The notes beneath the pieces are model-generated. The model did not search any database, was not told the origin of the DNA, and worked only from the letters and a program-made list of their open reading frames with translations. Both the position numbers and the translations under genes were made by a program. From Pseudomonas muyukensis (lineage in GTDB: Bacteria; Pseudomonadota; Gammaproteobacteria; Pseudomonadales; Pseudomonadaceae), in assembly GCF_019139535.1 (NCBI RefSeq), contig NZ_CP077073.1, positions 695,501-759,500 of the forward strand: 64,000 nucleotides of DNA, in the 5' to 3' direction. Of this stretch, positions 2,786-28,877 are shown in pieces (positions within the stretch are counted from its first letter, which is position 1; the number at the start of each line of letters is the position of its first letter).

Positions 2786-3994
2786 ATGCCCAACCGTCTT
2801 CCTGTCACCGTGCTGTCCGGCTTCCTTGGCGCCGGCAAGAGCACGCTGCTCAACCATGTGCTGCGCAACCGTGACGACCTGCGCGTCGCGGTAATCGTCA
2901 ACGACATGAGCGAAATCAACATCGACGCCAGCGAGGTGCAGCGCAACGTCAGCCTTAACCGCGCCGAAGAGAAACTGGTGGAGATGAGCAACGGTTGCAT
3001 CTGCTGCACCCTGCGTGAAGACCTGCTGGAAGAAGTGGCCCGCTTGGCCGGTGAAGGTCGCTTCGACTACCTGCTGATCGAGTCGACCGGTATCTCCGAG
3101 CCGCTGCCGGTGGCCGAAACCTTCACCTTCCGTGACGAGCAGGGCCGCAGCCTGAGCGACATGGCGCGGCTGGACACCATGGTCACGGTGGTCGATGGCC
3201 TGAATTTCCTGCGCGACTATCAGGCCGCCGACAGCCTCGCCAGCCGTGGGGAAACCTTGGGTGAGGAAGACGAACGTTCGATCAGCGACCTGTTGATCGA
3301 GCAGGTCGAGTTCGCCGATGTGCTGCTGCTGAGCAAGATCGACCTGATCAGCCAGGCCGAGCGCGAGGAGTTGATCGCCATTTTGCGCAGCCTCAATGCC
3401 CGGGCGCAGATCGTGCCGATGGTGATGGGCCAGGTGGCGTTGTCGCGGATCCTCGACACCGGGCTGTTTGACTTCGACCAGGCGGCCCAGGCCCCAGGCT
3501 GGTTGCAGGAGCTGCGCGGCGAGCATGTGCCCGAAACCGAGGAGTACGGCATTGCCGCGAGCACCTGGCAGGCACGCCGGCCGTTCCATCCGCAGCGCTT
3601 CTTCGATTTTATCCACAGGCCCTGGAGCAATGGCCGGTTGCTGCGTTCCAAGGGCTTCTTCTGGCTGGCCAGCAAGTTCCAGGAGGCCGGCAGCTGGTCC
3701 CAGGCCGGCGGCATGATGCGCCATGGCCTGGCCGGGCGGTGGTGGCGGTTCGTGCCACGCGAGCAATGGCCGCAGGATGAAGAGAATACCGCGGCGATCC
3801 TCAAGCAGTGGACGGTGGAAGCCGGCGATTGCCGCCAGGAGCTGGTATTCATTGGGCAGAACATCGATTTTGCGCAGTTATCCACAGAGCTGGAGGCTTG
3901 CCTGTTGACTGATGCAGAAATGGACCTGGGGCCGATGGGCTGGTTGCGCCTGGCTGACCCGTTCGGTGCCTGGCATGAGGAAGCGGCGGCATGA
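2786..3994 (+). CDS. CobW/ZigA-family zinc metallochaperone GTPase
   Basis: 402 aa member of the COG0523 G3E GTPases, which are thought to deliver zinc to client enzymes during starvation. Walker A is GFLGAGKS (12-19), the metal-binding CxCC motif is CICC (71-74), the switch region ESTGISEP is near 99-106, and the G4-like LSKID is near 189-193. The CobW C-terminal domain follows (about 290-385). In-frame ATGs at 2747 and 2774 were rejected: the Zur box and -10 element end at about 2742, and GAGG (2776-2779) is ideally spaced for ATG 2786. The gene overlaps DUF1826 by 4 bases (ATGA), implying translational coupling. Two perfect DnaA-box 9-mers lie in the coding region (3609, 3878). Confidence 0.9.
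3609..3617 (+). other. Perfect DnaA-box 9-mer
   Basis: TTATCCACA, the consensus high-affinity DnaA box, lies inside the CobW/ZigA gene. It is one of four perfect boxes between 3609 and 5489. Whether DnaA binds here is not shown by the sequence. Confidence 0.5.
3878..3886 (+). other. Perfect DnaA-box 9-mer
   Basis: TTATCCACA within the 3' part of the CobW/ZigA gene, 260 bases after the box at 3609 and in the same orientation. It uses the rare leucine codon TTA in a GC-rich gene. Confidence 0.5.
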
Positions 3995-4611
3995 GCCCTA
4001 TGCTCAACCGCCAGGTGTTCGCGGACTCGCCGCGGGTGCTGACCGAGATCCTCGCCGATGACGTCAACCTGGCGACCTGGCAGCGCCGTCTGCCGGCCCA
4101 GGTGGAGGACTTTGCCGGGCTGGTGCTGAGCCAGGGCCAGATGCTGGCCGATGAGCGGGTGGTCGAGGTGGACGAACACCAGGTCCCGGTGCTGCCAGGG
4201 CTGCTCAGGGAGGCCTCGGACCTGCATGGCTATGCGGGTTTCGTCGCCGATGTGGTGTGGCTGGTCGAGGCCTTTACCTGCTTGCTCGGGGCGCGGCGTA
4301 TCGGCTTGCGTTTGCGCGTGCTGGAGGGCGCCATGTGCCCGCGTTTTCACGTGGACCATGTGCCGCTGCGGTTGTTGAGCACTTACGCCGGGGCTGGCAG
4401 CGAGTGGCTGGAGGAGGGGCGGTTGGATCGGTCACGGTTGCAGTTCGAGCCGCCGCCTGTGGATAACATTCAGCGGCTGGCAGCGGGAGAGGTGGCGCTG
4501 CTCAAAGGAGAGCGTTGGCTGGGCAATGAGGGCGGTGGGCTGATCCACCGTTCGCCACCGACGCCTGCCGGTGAGCGGCGCTTGTTGTTGAGCCTGGATT
4601 GGCTGGCGTGA
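3991..4611 (+). CDS. DUF1826 family protein
   Basis: 206 aa, no signal peptide or membrane segment, so probably cytoplasmic. The sequence matches the DUF1826 pattern: a [14 protein letters not shown] block (about 110-123) with Cys and two His residues that could bind metal, and a C-terminal IHRSPP…RRLLLSLDW segment. The C-x3-H-x2-H and later IHRS histidine are reminiscent of non-haem iron (cupin/dioxygenase-like) proteins, but no activity is established. Its start overlaps the CobW/ZigA stop, so it belongs to the same Zur-controlled operon. The family is often found beside zinc-starvation genes, which is the only clue to its role. Confidence 0.8.
4458..4466 (-). other. Perfect DnaA-box 9-mer (minus strand)
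   Basis: TGTGGATAA on the plus strand, i.e. TTATCCACA on the minus strand, inside the DUF1826 gene. Confidence 0.5.
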
Positions 4612-4681
4612 GTGCCATCGTGGGACCAGCCACCTTGCCAGCAGGTTAGACTGACGCAACCCTTCTCGCCGATAGCCAATC

Positions 4682-5650
4682 ATGCTGCGTAACATCCCCA
4701 CCCATGTGATCGCCGGCCCTCTGGGTGCCGGCAAGACCAGCCTGCTCCGCCAGCTGCTCGACCAGCGCCCGGCGAACGAGCGCTGGGCCGTGCTGGTCAA
4801 CGAGTTCGGCCAGATCGGCCTGGACGCCGCCTTGCTCAGTCGTGACGACGCCGGCATCGCCATTGGCGAGGTGGCCGGCGGTTGCCTGTGCTGCGTCAAC
4901 GGCGCGCCATTCCAGGTAGGCCTTGCCCGCCTGCTGCGCAAGGCCCGCCCCGATCGGCTGTTGATCGAGCCGTCCGGCCTTGGCCATCCGCTGCAACTGT
5001 TGGAACAACTGCGCCAGGCGCCATGGAGCGGGGTGCTGGCGGTACAGCCGCTGTTGATGGTGCTGGATGGCGCGGCGCTGGCGCGTGGGGAGGGTTTGCC
5101 GCCTGCCCAGCAACAGGCGCTGCAGCAGGCGGGGCTGCTGGTTATCAACAAGGCGGATGCTGTGGATGAGCCGACACGCTTGTTGATAACTGCCCAGTTG
5201 CCCGAGGTGCCGGCCATCTGGAGCGCGTTTGGCGCGCTTGCCCTCGAGGCGTTGCCAGCGTCGCTGGCGCAGGCTTGCGCAGCGCCGGCGACCTTGCCTG
5301 TGGACAACGGCACGGCGTCGCTACCTGCGCTGTGGGCAGATCCTCGCCAGCCCATCCGCCAGGCCCAGCAGGGTGATGGCGGCTGGAGCAGCGGCTGGCG
5401 CTGGCACCCCAGCCAGCGCTTCGATGACGCGGCATTGGGCCGGGTCCTTGAACAATGGCCGTGGCGTCGGGCCAAGGGGGTTATCCACAGCGCGGCTGGG
5501 TGGATGTCGTTCAACGGCCTGGACAGGGGAGCGCTGGACTGGCGCCCGAGCGAATGGCGCAACGACTCGCGGATCGAGCTGATCTTCGCTCAGCCACAAT
5601 CTTTGCAGGCCCTGCACGTTGCGATCGAGGCCTGCCGCCTGGACCACTGA
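4682..5650 (+). CDS. Second CobW/YjiA-type GTPase
   Basis: 322 aa COG0523 GTPase, shorter than the one at 2786. Walker A GPLGAGKT (12-19), CxCC metal motif CLCC (68-71), EPSGLGHP switch region and INKAD guanine-specificity motif are all present. The C-terminal CobW domain is compact, ending EACRLDH. It lies 70 bases after the DUF1826 gene on the same strand and probably belongs to the Zur operon, although the gap could hold its own promoter. Its paralogy with the first GTPase suggests different zinc-client proteins. One perfect (5481-5489) and three near DnaA boxes (5142, 5181, 5299) lie inside. Confidence 0.87.
   Translation: MLRNIPTHVIAGPLGAGKTSLLRQLLDQRPANERWAVLVNEFGQIGLDAALLSRDDAGIAIGEVAGGCLCCVNGAPFQVGLARLLRKARPDRLLIEPSGLGHPLQLLEQLRQAPWSGVLAVQPLLMVLDGAALARGEGLPPAQQQALQQAGLLVINKADAVDEPTRLLITAQLPEVPAIWSAFGALALEALPASLAQACAAPATLPVDNGTASLPALWADPRQPIRQAQQGDGGWSSGWRWHPSQRFDDAALGRVLEQWPWRRAKGVIHSAAGWMSFNGLDRGALDWRPSEWRNDSRIELIFAQPQSLQALHVAIEACRLDH
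5481..5489 (+). other. Perfect DnaA-box 9-mer
   Basis: TTATCCACA inside the second CobW gene. One-mismatch versions, TTATCAACA at 5142-5150 and its reverse complement at 5181-5189, lie just upstream. Confidence 0.5.
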
Positions 5651-6043
5651 TCAGTTGCGCCAGCGGTTATGCTCCTGGCGCCATTGCTGCATCTCGATGA
5701 CATTGTCGGTGCGTGGCGGGGTCTTGATCTCGAAGGGGTAGGGCGCCAGTTCGATCTGCATGGTGTGGGCACCGAACTGGGTGACGGTGCCGGGGTGGCG
5801 TTGTTCGCCGGTGACGGTGAACTCGAAGTTGTAGATGCGCGCCAGGCGCTTGCGGCCATTGGCATCACGCACCAGGCCGATGCGTTTGAGCGCCACGGCG
5901 TCGTCGAGCAGTTCCAGGTCGAGCTTGGCGCAATGCTGCTTGACCCGCGCCAGGGCCTTTTCGCGCAGCCCGTGGTTGTGCCACAGCCAGGCGCCCGCGG
6001 TCGCCACCAGCAGCAGGACGAAGAGGTTTTCCAGGGTCAGCAT
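5651..6043 (-). CDS. DUF3301 family membrane-anchored protein
   Basis: 130 aa. One N-terminal transmembrane segment (about residues 6-22, ending AWLWHNH) is followed by a soluble domain with the DUF3301 pattern: Cys-x-K/L around [11 protein letters not shown], the [11 protein letters not shown] strand and the RIYNFEFT strand, and a charged C-terminus. It is probably anchored in the inner membrane with a cytoplasmic domain. Function is unknown. It starts immediately next to the stop of the CobW gene (convergent, no gap). Confidence 0.8.
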
Positions 6044-6163
6044 TTGCGTAAGCTCCAGACAGGTCGATCCAGCTTAACTGCGTCTCTGGCCTGTCGTACA
6101 GATGGCAATCAGGTTCATACTGCGGGCCGCACACTTATTCACACAGTTTCGGAATTGCCCTGC

Positions 6164-25008: not shown

Positions 25009-25455
25009 CTACAGTGCCTTGCGAAATTGGATGAAGCCCGGGCGCTCGGCAACCTGCTCGTACAGGCTGATGGCGGTGGCGTTGGTTTCGTGGGTCAGCC
25101 AGTGCACTTTGCTGCAGCCGGCGGCCTTGGCCGTGGCGTACACCTGCTCGATCAGTTGGCGGCCGATGCCCAGGCCGCGCTGCGTACTGTCGACGTAGAG
25201 GTCCTGCAGGTAGCAGGAAGGCTCGATGCTCCAGTTGGAACGATGGTAGATGAAGTTGACCATGCCCACCGCCTTGCCATCGACCCAGGCGAGTGTCGAG
25301 TGGGTCGGCTCGTTGGGGTCGAGCAGGCGCTGCCAGGTACTGGCGCTGACGCTGTCGGCCAGTTCGGTCTGGTAGAAGCGCAGGTAGGCCTGCCACAGGG
25401 GCAGCCAGGCTGGGTGGTCGTCGGCGCCGACCGGGCGCAAGGTAACGCGGGTCAT
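25009..25455 (-). CDS. GNAT N-acetyltransferase
   Basis: 148 aa, single GNAT domain. The acetyl-CoA motif is LYVDSTQRGLGIGRQLIEQVYATAKAAGC (about 86-114), matching R/Q-x-x-G-x-G/A. Substrate unknown. AAGGAA lies 8 bases before ATG 25455. It sits between the PaiB-like gene (gap 12) and a second GNAT gene (gap 7), so the three are probably co-transcribed. In Bacillus, PaiA (a GNAT polyamine acetyltransferase) and PaiB are paired, so a polyamine or amine substrate is a reasonable guess. Confidence 0.86.
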   Translation of the reverse strand: MTRVTLRPVGADDHPAWLPLWQAYLRFYQTELADSVSASTWQRLLDPNEPTHSTLAWVDGKAVGMVNFIYHRSNWSIEPSCYLQDLYVDSTQRGLGIGRQLIEQVYATAKAAGCSKVHWLTHETNATAISLYEQVAERPGFIQFRKAL

Positions 25456-25467
25456 GGGGCTTTTCCT

Positions 25468-26097
25468 TCAGAGATCGCGCATCTGCGCGGCGAGTTGGTT
25501 GTCCAGGTAGTCGGTGCTGGCCGCCAGGCCCGCGCGCACGCCGGCGATATCCTCGGCCGAACGGTTCTGGCTGAGTTTGCGCGCGCCTTGCAGGCGGGTG
25601 ATGGGCAGGCGGATGCCGACGATGGCGCGGAGCATGCCGTCGAGGTAGTCGGCAGGGGCGTCGGTGGTTTTCCAGGGGGTGTCGCGCCCCCGTTCGTGGC
25701 GATCGGTCAGGCGGCTGACGATCGCCAGCAACGCTGTGGCGTCGTGGATGACTTCGACCGGGCCATGGGCGTGAACCGCCGTGTAGTTCCAGGTAGGCAC
25801 CGTTCTGGGGTTGTCGTGCTTGCTTGGGTAGTAGCCTGGGCTGACATAGGCATCGGCACCGGGAAACACCAGCAGCGCTTCACCGCCTTGCGCCAGGTCC
25901 TGCCACTGGCGATTGGCGCGGGCCAGATGGCCGTAGACGGTGCCGAACTCACCTTCGTCCGGGGCCAGCAGCACCGGCAAGTGGCTGGCCAGCAGGCCCT
26001 GTTCGCCGTGGCTGACCAGCATGGCCAGGCGGGTCTGCTGCATGTGCAGGTGCAGCCGGCAGAGGTCGTGTTCCTGGTGGGCTTTGCTGTTGTACAT
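25468..26097 (-). CDS. FMN-binding PaiB-like negative regulator
   Basis: 209 aa. Matches the FMN-binding split-barrel PaiB family: YNSKAHQEHDLCRLHLHMQQTRLAMLVSHGEQGLLASHLPVLL at the N-terminus, YVSPGYYPSKHD…VPTWNYTAVHAHGPVEVI in the middle (about 85-117), and the ARKLSQNRSAEDIAGV segment near 168-183. In Bacillus, PaiB represses protease and sporulation genes; elsewhere its function is unclear, and it may be a flavin oxidoreductase. It is first in a leftward operon with two GNAT genes and divergent from the MocR regulator, its likely controller. Confidence 0.86.
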   Translation of the reverse strand: MYNSKAHQEHDLCRLHLHMQQTRLAMLVSHGEQGLLASHLPVLLAPDEGEFGTVYGHLARANRQWQDLAQGGEALLVFPGADAYVSPGYYPSKHDNPRTVPTWNYTAVHAHGPVEVIHDATALLAIVSRLTDRHERGRDTPWKTTDAPADYLDGMLRAIVGIRLPITRLQGARKLSQNRSAEDIAGVRAGLAASTDYLDNQLAAQMRDL

Positions 26098-26187
26098 GGG
26101 ATGGGTCCTTGTCGAATGACCTCATGCTAGGCAGGCTATTGGTTCTGTGTAAGAGCCATTTACGGTAGTTCTCATAGGTCCAATACC

Positions 26188-27705
26188 ATGCGCGAAGCGT
26201 CCCATGCCTTGCCGTTCGATCCTGCCGGCATCATCCTCGACCGGCGCCGTGGCCTTAGCCAGCAGCTGTACCAGGCCTTGCGCGCGCGGGTGCTGGACGG
26301 TCGCCTCGGCAGTGGTACCCGCTTGCCCGCCACCCGTGACCTGGCGGCGATCCTGGGGTTGTCGCGCAATAGCGTGGTGCGGGCCTACGACCAGTTGTAC
26401 GCCGAAGGTTTCATTGAAAGTCGGGTGGGCGACGGCACCTATGTCAGCCAGCTGGAAAAACTATCCACACAACTGTCCACAGGGTTATCCCTGGGTTTAT
26501 CAACAGGTTTATCCACATTTTCGCCTTCTGATACTGAGGATTTATCCAGCTTGGCAGCTGTCAGCGTGCCCTTGCAGCGTCTGAAAGAACACCATTTGCC
26601 GCCGCCGAAAAGTGGGGCTCCACGTGCATTCCGGGTGGGCGTGCCGGCCTACGATCTGTTCCCGTTCGATGTGTGGGCCAAGCTGCATGCGGGTTTCTGG
26701 CGAAACCCCGATCCTTCGGCGCTCGGCTACGGCGACCCGGCGGGGGAGCTGGCGCTGCGTGAGCTGATTGCCACTTACTTGCGCCGTTCGCGGGGGCTCT
26801 CCTGCACGGCTGAACAAATTTTGATCACCCATGGCGCCCAGGAGGCCATCAGCCTTTGTGCACAGTTGCTGTTGCAGTCGGGCGACGCCGTGGCTGTGGA
26901 AAACCCTGGGTACCGCGCGGCGGGGCACGCGTTTGCCCTGGCCGGGGCACAGCTCAGGGGCATGCCGGTGGACGACGAGGGCATGGATTGCACGGGCCTG
27001 GCGGACTGCCGCTTGGCCTATGTGACGCCGGCCCACCAGTACCCGACGGGGGTCACCATGAGCCTGGCTAGGCGCCTGGCGCTGCTGGCCTGGGCCGAGC
27101 GGGAACAGGCCTGGATCATCGAGGACGACTATGACGGCGAGTACCGCTACAGCGGCGCGCCACTGGCACCGCTGGCGACCTTGGATCGGCAAGGCCGGGT
27201 GCTGTATGTCGGCACCTTCGGCAAGATTGCCTTCCCCGCGCTGCGCCTGGGCTACCTGGTACTGCCCAGGCACCTGGTGCAGGCATTCAGCCGTGGTCGG
27301 GCCTTGGCGGTGCGCCACTCGGAGGTGGGCACCCAGTGGGTGATGGCGCAGTTCATGGCCCTGGGGCATTTCCAGCGGCACATCCGGCGGATGCGGCGGG
27401 CGGCGTTGGCGCGGCGCGATGTGCTGATGGCCGGCTGGCCGCTGGATGTGCCGGGGTTGGGGGCGATGCCGGAGGTGGCGGCGGGGCTGCATGTGAAAGT
27501 GGATGTGGATAACTTTGCGCGGGAGCAGGCCCTGGTAGCCCAGGCGCAGGCGGTCGGGGTGGAGGTGAATCCGCTGAGCTCATTCTGGCTGGAGGACAGC
27601 CAGGTGCCTGTGGATAAACGCGCGGGGCTGGTGCTGGGGTTTGCCGCAGTGCCGCAAGCCCAGGTGGCGGACGCGTTGATGCGCCTGCGCAAGGCCTGGA
27701 GATAG
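26188..27705 (+). CDS. MocR/PdxR-type regulator (GntR HTH + aminotransferase fold)
   Basis: 505 aa. An N-terminal GntR winged HTH (about 16-88: LSQQLYQALRARVLDGRLGSGTRLPATRDLAAILGLSRNSV) is joined by an unusual linker (92-125) to a class-I aminotransferase-like domain (about 130-500). The PLP lysine is predicted at 346 (GTFGKIAFPALRLGY), and the EDDYDGEYRY motif is intact. Linker residues 92-111 are five tetrads of LSTx/LSLG type encoded by an exact 12-bp repeat of DnaA-box-like sequence. It probably binds PLP or an amino-compound aldimine and regulates the divergent PaiB-GNAT operon from 26098-26187, and perhaps itself. Confidence 0.9.
   Translation: MREASHALPFDPAGIILDRRRGLSQQLYQALRARVLDGRLGSGTRLPATRDLAAILGLSRNSVVRAYDQLYAEGFIESRVGDGTYVSQLEKLSTQLSTGLSLGLSTGLSTFSPSDTEDLSSLAAVSVPLQRLKEHHLPPPKSGAPRAFRVGVPAYDLFPFDVWAKLHAGFWRNPDPSALGYGDPAGELALRELIATYLRRSRGLSCTAEQILITHGAQEAISLCAQLLLQSGDAVAVENPGYRAAGHAFALAGAQLRGMPVDDEGMDCTGLADCRLAYVTPAHQYPTGVTMSLARRLALLAWAEREQAWIIEDDYDGEYRYSGAPLAPLATLDRQGRVLYVGTFGKIAFPALRLGYLVLPRHLVQAFSRGRALAVRHSEVGTQWVMAQFMALGHFQRHIRRMRRAALARRDVLMAGWPLDVPGLGAMPEVAAGLHVKVDVDNFAREQALVAQAQAVGVEVNPLSSFWLEDSQVPVDKRAGLVLGFAAVPQAQVADALMRLRKAWR
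26461..26520 (+). repeat. Five 12-bp tandem units of DnaA-box-like sequence inside the MocR gene
   Basis: Units start at 26461, 26473, 26485, 26497 and 26509, each exactly 12 bases apart. Their first nine bases are CTATCCACA, CTGTCCACA, TTATCCCTG, TTATCAACA and TTATCCACA. The last is a perfect DnaA box, the first and fourth have one mismatch, the second two, and the third three. A sixth partial match, TTATCCAGC, lies at 26542. All are on the plus strand and in frame, encoding LSTQ-LSTG-LSLG-LSTG-LSTF, with repeated use of the rare codon TTA. The repeat is plain in the sequence; DnaA binding is a hypothesis. Confidence 0.85.
27504..27512 (-). other. Perfect DnaA-box 9-mer (minus strand)
   Basis: TGTGGATAA on the plus strand in the 3' part of the MocR gene. 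A related TGTGGAAAA (TTTTCCACA on the minus strand) lies at 26895-26903. Confidence 0.5.
27609..27617 (-). other. Perfect DnaA-box 9-mer (minus strand)
   Basis: TGTGGATAA on the plus strand, 105 bases after the box at 27504 and about 90 bases before the MocR stop codon. Confidence 0.5.
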
Positions 27706-27770
27706 CGATCGCGGGGGCAAGCCCGCTGCCACGCATGCCATGCACAGGAGCAGGCTTGCCCCCGCGATGC
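27706..27770. repeat. REP-type palindrome
   Basis: ATCGCGGGGGCAAGCCCG… pairs with …CAGGCTTGCCCCCGCGAT, filling the whole 68-base gap between the convergent MocR and substrate-binding-protein genes. It probably serves as a shared transcript end. Confidence 0.75.
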
Positions 27771-27773
27771 TTT

Positions 27774-28877
27774 TCAGGTCCCGGACTTGATCTTGGTCCA
27801 GGCCCTGGTCCGCGCCCGTTCGGCATCCCGCGGCAACGGCTTGAGGGTGTACAGCTTGGCCATCGCCTCTGCCGTCGGGTACAGGTTGGAGTTGTTGCGG
27901 ATCGCCGGGCTGACCTTGTCGGTGGCGTCCTTGTTCGGGTTGGGGTAACCGACGAAATCGCTGATCGGGGCGATGACCTCGGGGCGTAGCAGGTAATTGA
28001 TGAAGGCGTGGGCATCCTGCGGGTTGGCCGCGTTCTTCGGGATCGCCAGCATGTCGAACCAGATCGGCGCGCCTTCCCTGGGCAGGCGCATGTCCACCAC
28101 CACGCCGTTGTTCGCCTCGCGCGCCCGGTTGGCGGCCTGGGAGAAACTGCCCGAATAACCCACCGCCACGCAGATGTCGCCATTGGCCATGTCGGCCATG
28201 TACTTGGAAGAGTGGAAGTAGGTGATGTACGGGCGAATCTTCAGCAGCAGATCCTGGGCCTTCTGGTAGTCCGCCGGCTTGCCGCTGTTGGGGTCCAGGC
28301 CCAGGTAGGCGAGGGCCAGCGGCAGGATCTCCGAAGGGGAGTCGAGCAGCGCCACGCCGCACTGCTTGAGCTTGGCGATGTTCTGTTCCTTGAAGATCAG
28401 CTCCCAGCTGTCCAGCGGCGCGTCATCGCCCAGCGCCGCCTTGACCTTGGCGGGGTTGAAGCCGATCAGCACGGTGCCGTACATGTAGGGCACCGCGTGC
28501 TGGTTGCCGGGGTCGTTGCTCTCGATCAGCTTCATCAGCGCCGGGTCCAAATGCTGCCAGTTGGGCAGCTTGGCGCGGTCCAGCGGCTGGAACACACCGG
28601 CTTCGATCTGTTTGGCAAGGAACACGTTGGAGGGCACCACCACGTCATAGCCGGAGTTGCCGGTGAGCAGCTTGGCCTCCAGTGCCTCGTTGGTGTCGAA
28701 GATGTCGTAGACCAGTTTCACGCCGCTGTCTTGCTGGAAACCGGTGAGGGTCTGCGGAGTGATGTAGTCAAACCAGTTGAAGACCCGCAAGGTGCGCTGG
28801 TCGGCATGGGCCTGGAGCGCGCCGGCGAGCAGGCCGGTGGCGATGAGCGGGGCGAGCAGACGCTTGAGTCGGACCAT
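27774..28877 (-). CDS. Polyamine ABC transporter periplasmic binding protein (PotF-like)
   Basis: 367 aa. Signal peptide 1-25 (…LLAGALQAHA-D), then the PotD/PotF fold starting LRVFNWFDYITPQTLTGFQQDSGVKLVYDIFDTNEALEAKLL. Typical family blocks follow: PYMYGTVLIGFN, LDSWELIF, CVAVGYSGS and the C-terminal lobe. It would bind putrescine, spermidine or an acetylated polyamine in the periplasm. It is second in a leftward operon behind an acetylpolyamine amidohydrolase (2-base gap, AGGAG site within the upstream gene). No permease or ATPase gene is nearby, so it must share a transporter encoded elsewhere. Confidence 0.9.
   Translation of the reverse strand: MVRLKRLLAPLIATGLLAGALQAHADQRTLRVFNWFDYITPQTLTGFQQDSGVKLVYDIFDTNEALEAKLLTGNSGYDVVVPSNVFLAKQIEAGVFQPLDRAKLPNWQHLDPALMKLIESNDPGNQHAVPYMYGTVLIGFNPAKVKAALGDDAPLDSWELIFKEQNIAKLKQCGVALLDSPSEILPLALAYLGLDPNSGKPADYQKAQDLLLKIRPYITYFHSSKYMADMANGDICVAVGYSGSFSQAANRAREANNGVVVDMRLPREGAPIWFDMLAIPKNAANPQDAHAFINYLLRPEVIAPISDFVGYPNPNKDATDKVSPAIRNNSNLYPTAEAMAKLYTLKPLPRDAERARTRAWTKIKSGT

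Follow-up and report, generated by a model that had tools for sequence, protein, structure and literature searches.

The gene for a PdxR-like MocR regulator in Pseudomonas muyukensis carries, in the part that encodes the linker between its two domains, five DnaA-box-like 9-mers in regular array, and codon choice among its orthologues leaves little doubt that this DNA is itself under selection for the binding of a protein, very probably DnaA. The array occupies 26461-26517 (57 bp) of the window, i.e., of the whole 64,000-nucleotide stretch analysed, and all of its sites lie on the + strand with a 12-bp period and 3-bp gaps. With mismatches counted against TTATCCACA, the DnaA consensus box, the sequence reads from 5' to 3' as site 1, CTATCCACA (26461-26469, one mismatch); site 2, CTGTCCACA (26473-26481, two); site 3, TTATCCCTG (26485-26493, three, the weakest match); site 4, TTATCAACA (26497-26505, one); and site 5, TTATCCACA itself (26509-26517, none), the strong anchor. 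A preliminary description had reported five units 12 bp apart on one strand with 1, 2, 3, 1 and 0 mismatches, together with a partial sixth at 26542, and reading of the sequence confirms all of this; the partial site is TTATCCAGC (26542-26550, + strand), with two mismatches, 33 bp beyond site 5. A further position, 46 bp beyond site 5 (26555-26563, + strand), is in frame +1 and codes for V-I-H; P. muyukensis has no box there, and most of its relatives do. A search for plasmid relatives of 26430-26580 gave no match at E 1e-5.

The host gene (26188-27705, + strand) is an ORF of 505 aa whose product scores 419.6 bits in a profile search with NCBIfam NF052282 (cut-off 320), the PdxR-like MocR family. 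The linker with the array lies between the Pfam domains GntR (wHTH) and Aminotran_1_2 (aminotransferase-like); the array starts 273 bp into the ORF and is translated in the MocR frame as LSTQ-LSTG-LSLG-LSTG-LSTF, as had been proposed. The accompanying remark that the codon TTA is used repeatedly holds for three of the five units, the other two having CTA and CTG. On the 5.53-Mb chromosome, dnaA is found at 665.8-667.3 kb (- strand) and the MocR gene at 721.7-723.2 kb (+ strand), transcribed away from dnaA at a distance of ~55 kb; a dense box cluster adjoining dnaA, at ~667.4 kb, is likely to be oriC.

A protein search of 149 Pseudomonas genomes yielded a MocR match in 141, from which 140 orthologues were fetched (G145 was left out). 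Each was scored for sites 1, 2, 4 and 5 at their fixed 12-bp offsets, 36 bases in all, and the 138 parsed rows split cleanly into 117 with 2-6 mismatches and 21 with at least 18; with L141 (array) and L216 (none), which were scored separately, the array is present in 118 of the 140 orthologues and absent from 22. Carriers, by record title, include P. putida HAI-2 and W15Oct28, P. fulva, P. parafulva, P. syringae PA-4-7F, P. fragi, P. lundensis and P. frederiksbergensis AS1, while P. alcaligenes, P. indoloxydans, P. marincola and Stutzerimonas stutzeri are without it. The 12-bp offsets of the five sites are unchanged in all 117 array rows. The linker 5' of site 1 is 15 to 117 bp long (116 rows measured), and 147 bp separate site 5 from the LFPF motif in 114 of the 117, versus 135 or 159 bp in the rest. 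On a FastTree tree of the protein part after the linker (138 rows, of which L223 is only 10% filled; 37 of 135 inner branches starred), the label of array presence or absence needs two changes. One of these is read as a loss in G128, because the G128 row falls within a starred set with 65 array rows; the other is taken to separate the two main groups.

The preliminary description had taken the choice of codons as a sign of selection on the DNA, and this is borne out in the 111 array rows used for codon tests, in which the codons of the LST-type motifs were compared with those in the rest of the same genes. Thr is encoded by ACA in 95% of the array codons versus 9% elsewhere, Ser by TCC or TCA in 97% versus 20%, Leu by TTA or CTA in 76% versus 6%, and Val by GTA in 87% versus 7%. 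When the linker codons were redrawn synonymously from each gene's own usage, 200 times per row, the mean number of sites with at most one mismatch was 0.18 and the maximum 3, compared with 4.58 observed; in 0 of the 111 rows did the redraws equal the observed box count. Furthermore, the residues vary (LSTK, VSTG, FSTG, LPTA, LSTN) while the DNA letters remain: substitutions among L, V, I and F and between S and P occur, and letters of the TATCCACA type stay. Alignment of orthologues had been proposed as a check, and in it the linkers of the array group keep their 9-mers, with no switch to CTG, AGC or ACC codons; this conservation in array-bearing orthologues supports the suggestion that the gene doubles as a DnaA-binding locus. 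It had also been suggested that the array might simply be an expanded 12-bp microsatellite, and one could equally imagine a need of the protein for LST repeats. The units are indeed tandem and in frame, and three rows (L140, L161 and L168) have one extra box 15-30 bp 5' of site 1, in an alignment that parsed 127 of the 140 rows and in which L141, being empty, was counted as zero. However, the same five positions recur across the clade with site-specific mismatches, the synonymous positions are frozen, and an additional box lies in another frame. A microsatellite or protein-only origin is accordingly rejected by the codon redraws and by the five constant offsets with their site-specific mismatches in 117 rows, and we give it almost no credence.

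The sites differ from one another in a consistent manner. Of the 117 array rows, 115 have a perfect site 5. In 109, site 4 deviates by exactly one mismatch (it is perfect in three and has two mismatches in five), its commonest forms being TTACCCACA (51 rows), TTATCAACA (26) and TTATCCCCA (20). Site 1 is perfect in 23, with one mismatch in 84 and two in 10; site 2 is never perfect, with one mismatch in 83 and two in 34; and site 3 is perfect in a single row, with one mismatch in 12, two in 79, three in 22 and more in three. On the tree, site 4 has undergone at least 27 changes and site 2 at least 44. The weak sites are apparently kept weak, because variants with one mismatch should pass through the perfect box as they interconvert, and yet perfect boxes are rare; these patterns of change suggest that the sub-consensus sites are maintained as such. 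At the +33 position, orthologues have TCATCCAGT (20 rows), TTATCCAGC (15), TTATCCAGT (8) and similar forms. The sixth box at +46, in its different frame, is present with at most one mismatch in 93 of the 117 rows (perfect in 87), and in two other rows it is shifted by minus or plus 12 bp, to +34 in one and +58 in the other. This other-frame site, the graded strengths and a second codon-frozen element, considered below, are additions to the preliminary description. Two perfect boxes later in the gene, at 27504-27512 and 27609-27617, to which that description had also drawn attention, are present in a box scan, on the - strand, but they are rejected as parts of the element: - strand boxes with at most one mismatch near the equivalent distances from the gene end occur in at most ~18 and ~33 of the 117 rows, respectively.

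A close architectural parallel is the right half of E. coli oriC, in which the strong site stands at the 3' end of the array. Four weak sites (C3-C2-I3-C1) point in one direction there with 2-bp gaps beside R4, the R4-C1 gap is 3 bp, and the region also has a Fis site, according to extracts of PMC4451416. Judged by its letters, the Pseudomonas array likewise combines four sub-consensus sites of one direction with one consensus site across a 3-bp gap; in contrast to oriC, its gaps are all 3 bp, and it lies ~55 kb from dnaA in coding DNA that is read through. E. coli DnaA prefers pairs of boxes 2-3 bp apart, and the double boxes of E. coli at purH, polA and mutH/DARS2 have 3-bp spacing, with the weaker box of purH 5' of the perfect one (PMC11317965, in part). 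These, however, are two boxes located 5' of genes, whereas the Pseudomonas array has five sites in a coding linker.

DnaA boxes are also abundant in the surroundings of the array. The window contains 8 perfect boxes, with 0.13 expected from shuffles, and 23 with at most one mismatch, with 3.58 expected; the whole P. muyukensis genome has 108 perfect boxes versus 10 for a reversed-pattern control. Forty of the 108 fall within 620-760 kb around dnaA (140 kb, 2.5% of the chromosome), and the density drops steeply outside. Enrichment of DnaA boxes near oriC has been described for E. coli strains and one Salmonella genome (PMC12371093, as far as its extracts go). In the 280 kb around dnaA, there are five clusters of at least three boxes within 150 bp, including the likely oriC and the array; head-to-tail pairs at 11 or 12 bp with at most two mismatches occur there in two places, the array and 640252. 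In 400 kb of G107, which belongs to another Pseudomonas group, such pairs are found only at the same array and at 26552, and ordinary box clusters number six, the array among them. Across 8 Pseudomonas genomes, head-to-tail double boxes with a 3-bp gap and at most three mismatches number 126, a count that includes the array's own pairs, versus 7 for the reversed control, and in many of them a perfect box comes after a weaker one.

The number of boxes varies strongly within the genus. G013, G027, G028 and G054 have 16-26 perfect boxes, compared with 66-165 in array-bearing genomes of the same search. Total box number was tried as an explanation of array presence and discarded, array-negative genomes spanning 16-127 perfect boxes (59 genomes). 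Other concentrations of boxes were also encountered. In the window, 3609-6143 has nine further boxes with at most one mismatch (four perfect) in and around CobW-type and DUF1826 genes, and the CobW gene (4682-5650) contains an inverted pair, at gene positions ~603 and ~800, that is perfect in 18 of 30 relatives. Several same-strand boxes lie between genes named by eye as livF-like and SDR-like at L242:3399-3798 (1263399-1263798 of its own genome) and are conserved in the four genomes examined (L242, L317, L318 and L319); this intergenic region is a candidate for a non-coding datA/DARS-like locus of Pseudomonas. In the array-negative genome G041, 13 boxes with at most one mismatch lie within 6 kb (L323, G041:C1:1111000-1117000), possibly as that genome's own DnaA-binding locus or as repeat DNA.

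The array is nearly always close to the origin. The distance between gene and dnaA could be placed on one contig for 109 of 141 pairs, 7 of which are without an array score. Of 91 scored array genes, 89 lie <200 kb from dnaA (49-175 kb), with a median of 91 kb over the 91, and six of the 7 unscored there were shown separately to carry the array as well, at 48-148 kb. Ten scored array-negative genes belong outside the array-bearing group; nine of them lie at 65-126 kb, and the tenth, in G041, at 1.36 Mb. Since nine of these ten are so placed, the position of the MocR gene near the origin probably predates the array; and because 22 of 140 orthologues lack the array although most of them, too, have the gene close to the origin, the array is dispensable in the genus. 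Within the array-bearing group, two of the three genomes with the gene >0.8 Mb from dnaA have lost the array, although one of the two, L066, comes from another sample. In G128, the gene is 2.11 Mb from dnaA and 94% identical after the linker to that of an array-bearing relative; in L066, dnaA is on another contig, at a distance of at least ~0.8 Mb as calculated from contig ends. Array loss after relocation away from the origin is thus suggestive. That loss always follows relocation is not claimed, since G029 keeps the array at 1.34 Mb; as G094 also keeps it, at 275 kb, closeness to dnaA is not strictly required.

These same genomes bear on a local explanation, in which array-bound DnaA would act as a roadblock or switch for transcription of the MocR gene or of the divergent FMN_bind_2 gene and so couple the regulator to the replication cycle, with no role in replication control. 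DnaA is known as a transcription factor (PMC8203912, in part), and the array does lie inside the regulator gene. However, a regulatory site would normally be expected at the promoter, i.e., in the intergenic gap 5' of the MocR gene (26098-26187), and the array is mid-gene; G128 retains the gene together with its neighbours from pycB to araC as an intact block, and L066 the gene with three neighbours, both without the array; and the graded weak sites with a sixth at +46 resemble an assembly platform. Local regulation is consequently considered rather unlikely.

Selection on codons is not restricted to the array. A scan of 7-codon windows was made over 103 of 138 rows (83 with the array and 20 without; the consensus comparison used the same rows, L170 apart, and one codon-freezing comparison used 113 and 7 rows). 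The lowest codon variation was found at 26491-26517 (z -3.5), inside the array, and at 26851-26871 (z -3.2). In array rows, it is also low in a second element of the GCTGARCAAATTKTGATCACC type (26809-26829, + strand, z -2.4) and in a third stretch, ATYAGCCTTTGTGCACAG (26848-26865, + strand). At 26677-26703, too, array-bearing genes vary little in their codons (z -2.9), without a recognised motif. The second and third stretches are each matched with at most two mismatches in 116 of 117 array rows, none of which has two in both, the exception being L223, whose downstream sequence is scant; in array-negative rows, the mismatches number 2-8 and 1-4, respectively. In the two genomes that lost the array, the mismatches are 2 and 2 (G128) and 4 and 2 (L066), so the second element is mildly eroded there. 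The third stretch includes a weak DnaA-like sequence, TTGTGCACA (26856-26864), within CTTTGTGCACAG, which is found in 113 of 117 array rows.

Frozen DNA might instead reflect a DNA-binding protein other than DnaA, or a function at the RNA level. For the latter, a hairpin over ~26809-26865 has an alifold energy of -7.8 (z -3.1 versus column shuffles), and its pairs are mostly kept, some by one-sided changes, with no compensatory double changes; an RNA hairpin is thus possible in that frozen stretch. However, the array itself has no consensus RNA fold, and Rfam gave no family above the gathering score in 25400-28000, the one sub-threshold match (27704-27771) being outside the array. A protein other than DnaA is difficult to reconcile with sites that correspond to the DnaA consensus, in a box-rich origin region and at a spacing that E. 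coli DnaA prefers. We consider both variants very improbable.

The second element also contains, at 26812-26826, a match to the Fis consensus GnnYAnnnnnTRnnC (taken from extracts of PMC10380432), which raises the question of whether the locus resembles a DARS and, with Fis, helps to turn ADP-DnaA into ATP-DnaA. E. coli DARS2 needs Fis and IHF, ATP-DnaA forms head-to-tail oligomers on it (PMC10380432, in part), and it is located at 64 min, not adjoining oriC (PMC5295017, in part). DARS loci have a core of boxes I-III in fixed arrangement. Compared by the presence of boxes, the Fis pattern and IHF sites, the Pseudomonas locus shares with DARS2 its DnaA boxes, and its Fis-type match has a constant offset of +303 bp relative to site 5 in 114 of the 117 array rows. 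However, the encoded residues account for most of the fixed Fis bases, and the bare Fis pattern is matched by the consensus of array-negative genes as well. Of the IHF sites that DARS2 requires, none was found conserved in the Pseudomonas locus, and DARS2 is not origin-adjacent. With WATCARNNNNTTR as the IHF consensus, at most 11 of the 117 array rows have a perfect match at any one position and at most 37 a match with one mismatch, i.e., no IHF site is conserved among them. A role in DnaA reactivation therefore seems improbable, and the array is not classed as a DARS.

Nor is it classed as datA, because the IHF feature was looked for and not found. Both nevertheless have boxes clustered away from oriC, on the chromosome's origin side, in Pseudomonas as judged at the level of sequence. 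A datA locus promotes the hydrolysis of DnaA-ATP. The E. coli datA is intergenic, needs IHF and boxes 2, 3 and 7, and is weakened by relocation (PMC10380432, in part), whereas the Pseudomonas array is coding and without a conserved IHF consensus. Initiation in E. coli is controlled by loci outside oriC. Clusters outside oriC (DBCs) are also found in B. subtilis, where deleting all six leads to early initiation (Okumura 2012, cited in PMC5295017) and where the title of the same work calls them oriC-proximal, although the review rates their role in initiation as not significant (PMC5295017). B. subtilis belongs to another phylum, and a 12-bp-phased graded array is not described for its DBCs in extracts of that review (PMC5295017).

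Taken together, these findings have led us to a model in which 26461-26517 would be an assembly site for a DnaA oligomer, maintained by DNA-level selection and accommodated in the protein by a flexible linker. The strong site 5 would hold DnaA, and the four sub-consensus sites upstream, of one direction and with 3-bp gaps, would fill cooperatively when DnaA, probably as DnaA-ATP, is plentiful; in most relatives, the sixth box 46 bp downstream would join the complex. Since nearly all of the scored genomes place it at ~49-175 kb from dnaA, the locus should be duplicated soon after initiation, and, by analogy with datA, the copies would then most likely bind or inactivate DnaA and thereby help to prevent a second start. 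We infer from the DNA that DnaA is the protein bound, that it would oligomerise on the array, that a weak site would mean weak binding, and that the outcome would be titration or inactivation. The preliminary description had listed titration, reactivation and control of the regulator as equals; the DnaA type of the sites stands, but position and architecture favour the first, and we consider it probable, if by no means assured, that the main role of the array is to titrate or inactivate DnaA near the origin by means of an oligomer. A single array among ~108 perfect boxes may titrate little, and there are other clusters of three or more boxes near oriC. The lack of a conserved IHF consensus, the slight extent of erosion of the second element in G128 and the hairpin alternative for that element also speak against the model.

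A more specific form of this model is put forward tentatively, with rather less than even confidence. The linker DNA would be a DnaA-ATP platform resembling one half of oriC and tuned site by site, with one strong site, four deliberately weak ones and, mostly, one more in another frame. Together with the Fis-like second element, it would constitute a cryptic DnaA control locus dependent on origin position, on the putida/fluorescens/syringae side of Pseudomonas, that tends to decay after the gene moves far from the origin; the protein linker would then be a by-product of the DNA. No Pseudomonas locus of this kind was found among the titles and abstract openings listed from the open PMC literature on DnaA boxes, and MocR regulators combined with DnaA boxes yielded no paper there. 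As far as searched, what is new within that literature is the coding location, the conserved graded geometry of five sites and the presence of such a locus in Pseudomonas.

What is known of DnaA-box loci outside oriC (datA, DARS and the clusters of Bacillus) comes mainly from two model species, and among them datA and DARS lie in non-coding DNA. An array that spans a clade and is hidden in a coding linker implies that such control loci can be overlooked if only intergenic DNA is searched. For Pseudomonas, the array represents a concrete candidate for initiation control, and synonymous recoding at this one locus makes DnaA titration testable without the removal of a gene; natural copies with a decayed array, distant from the origin, are likewise offered for study.
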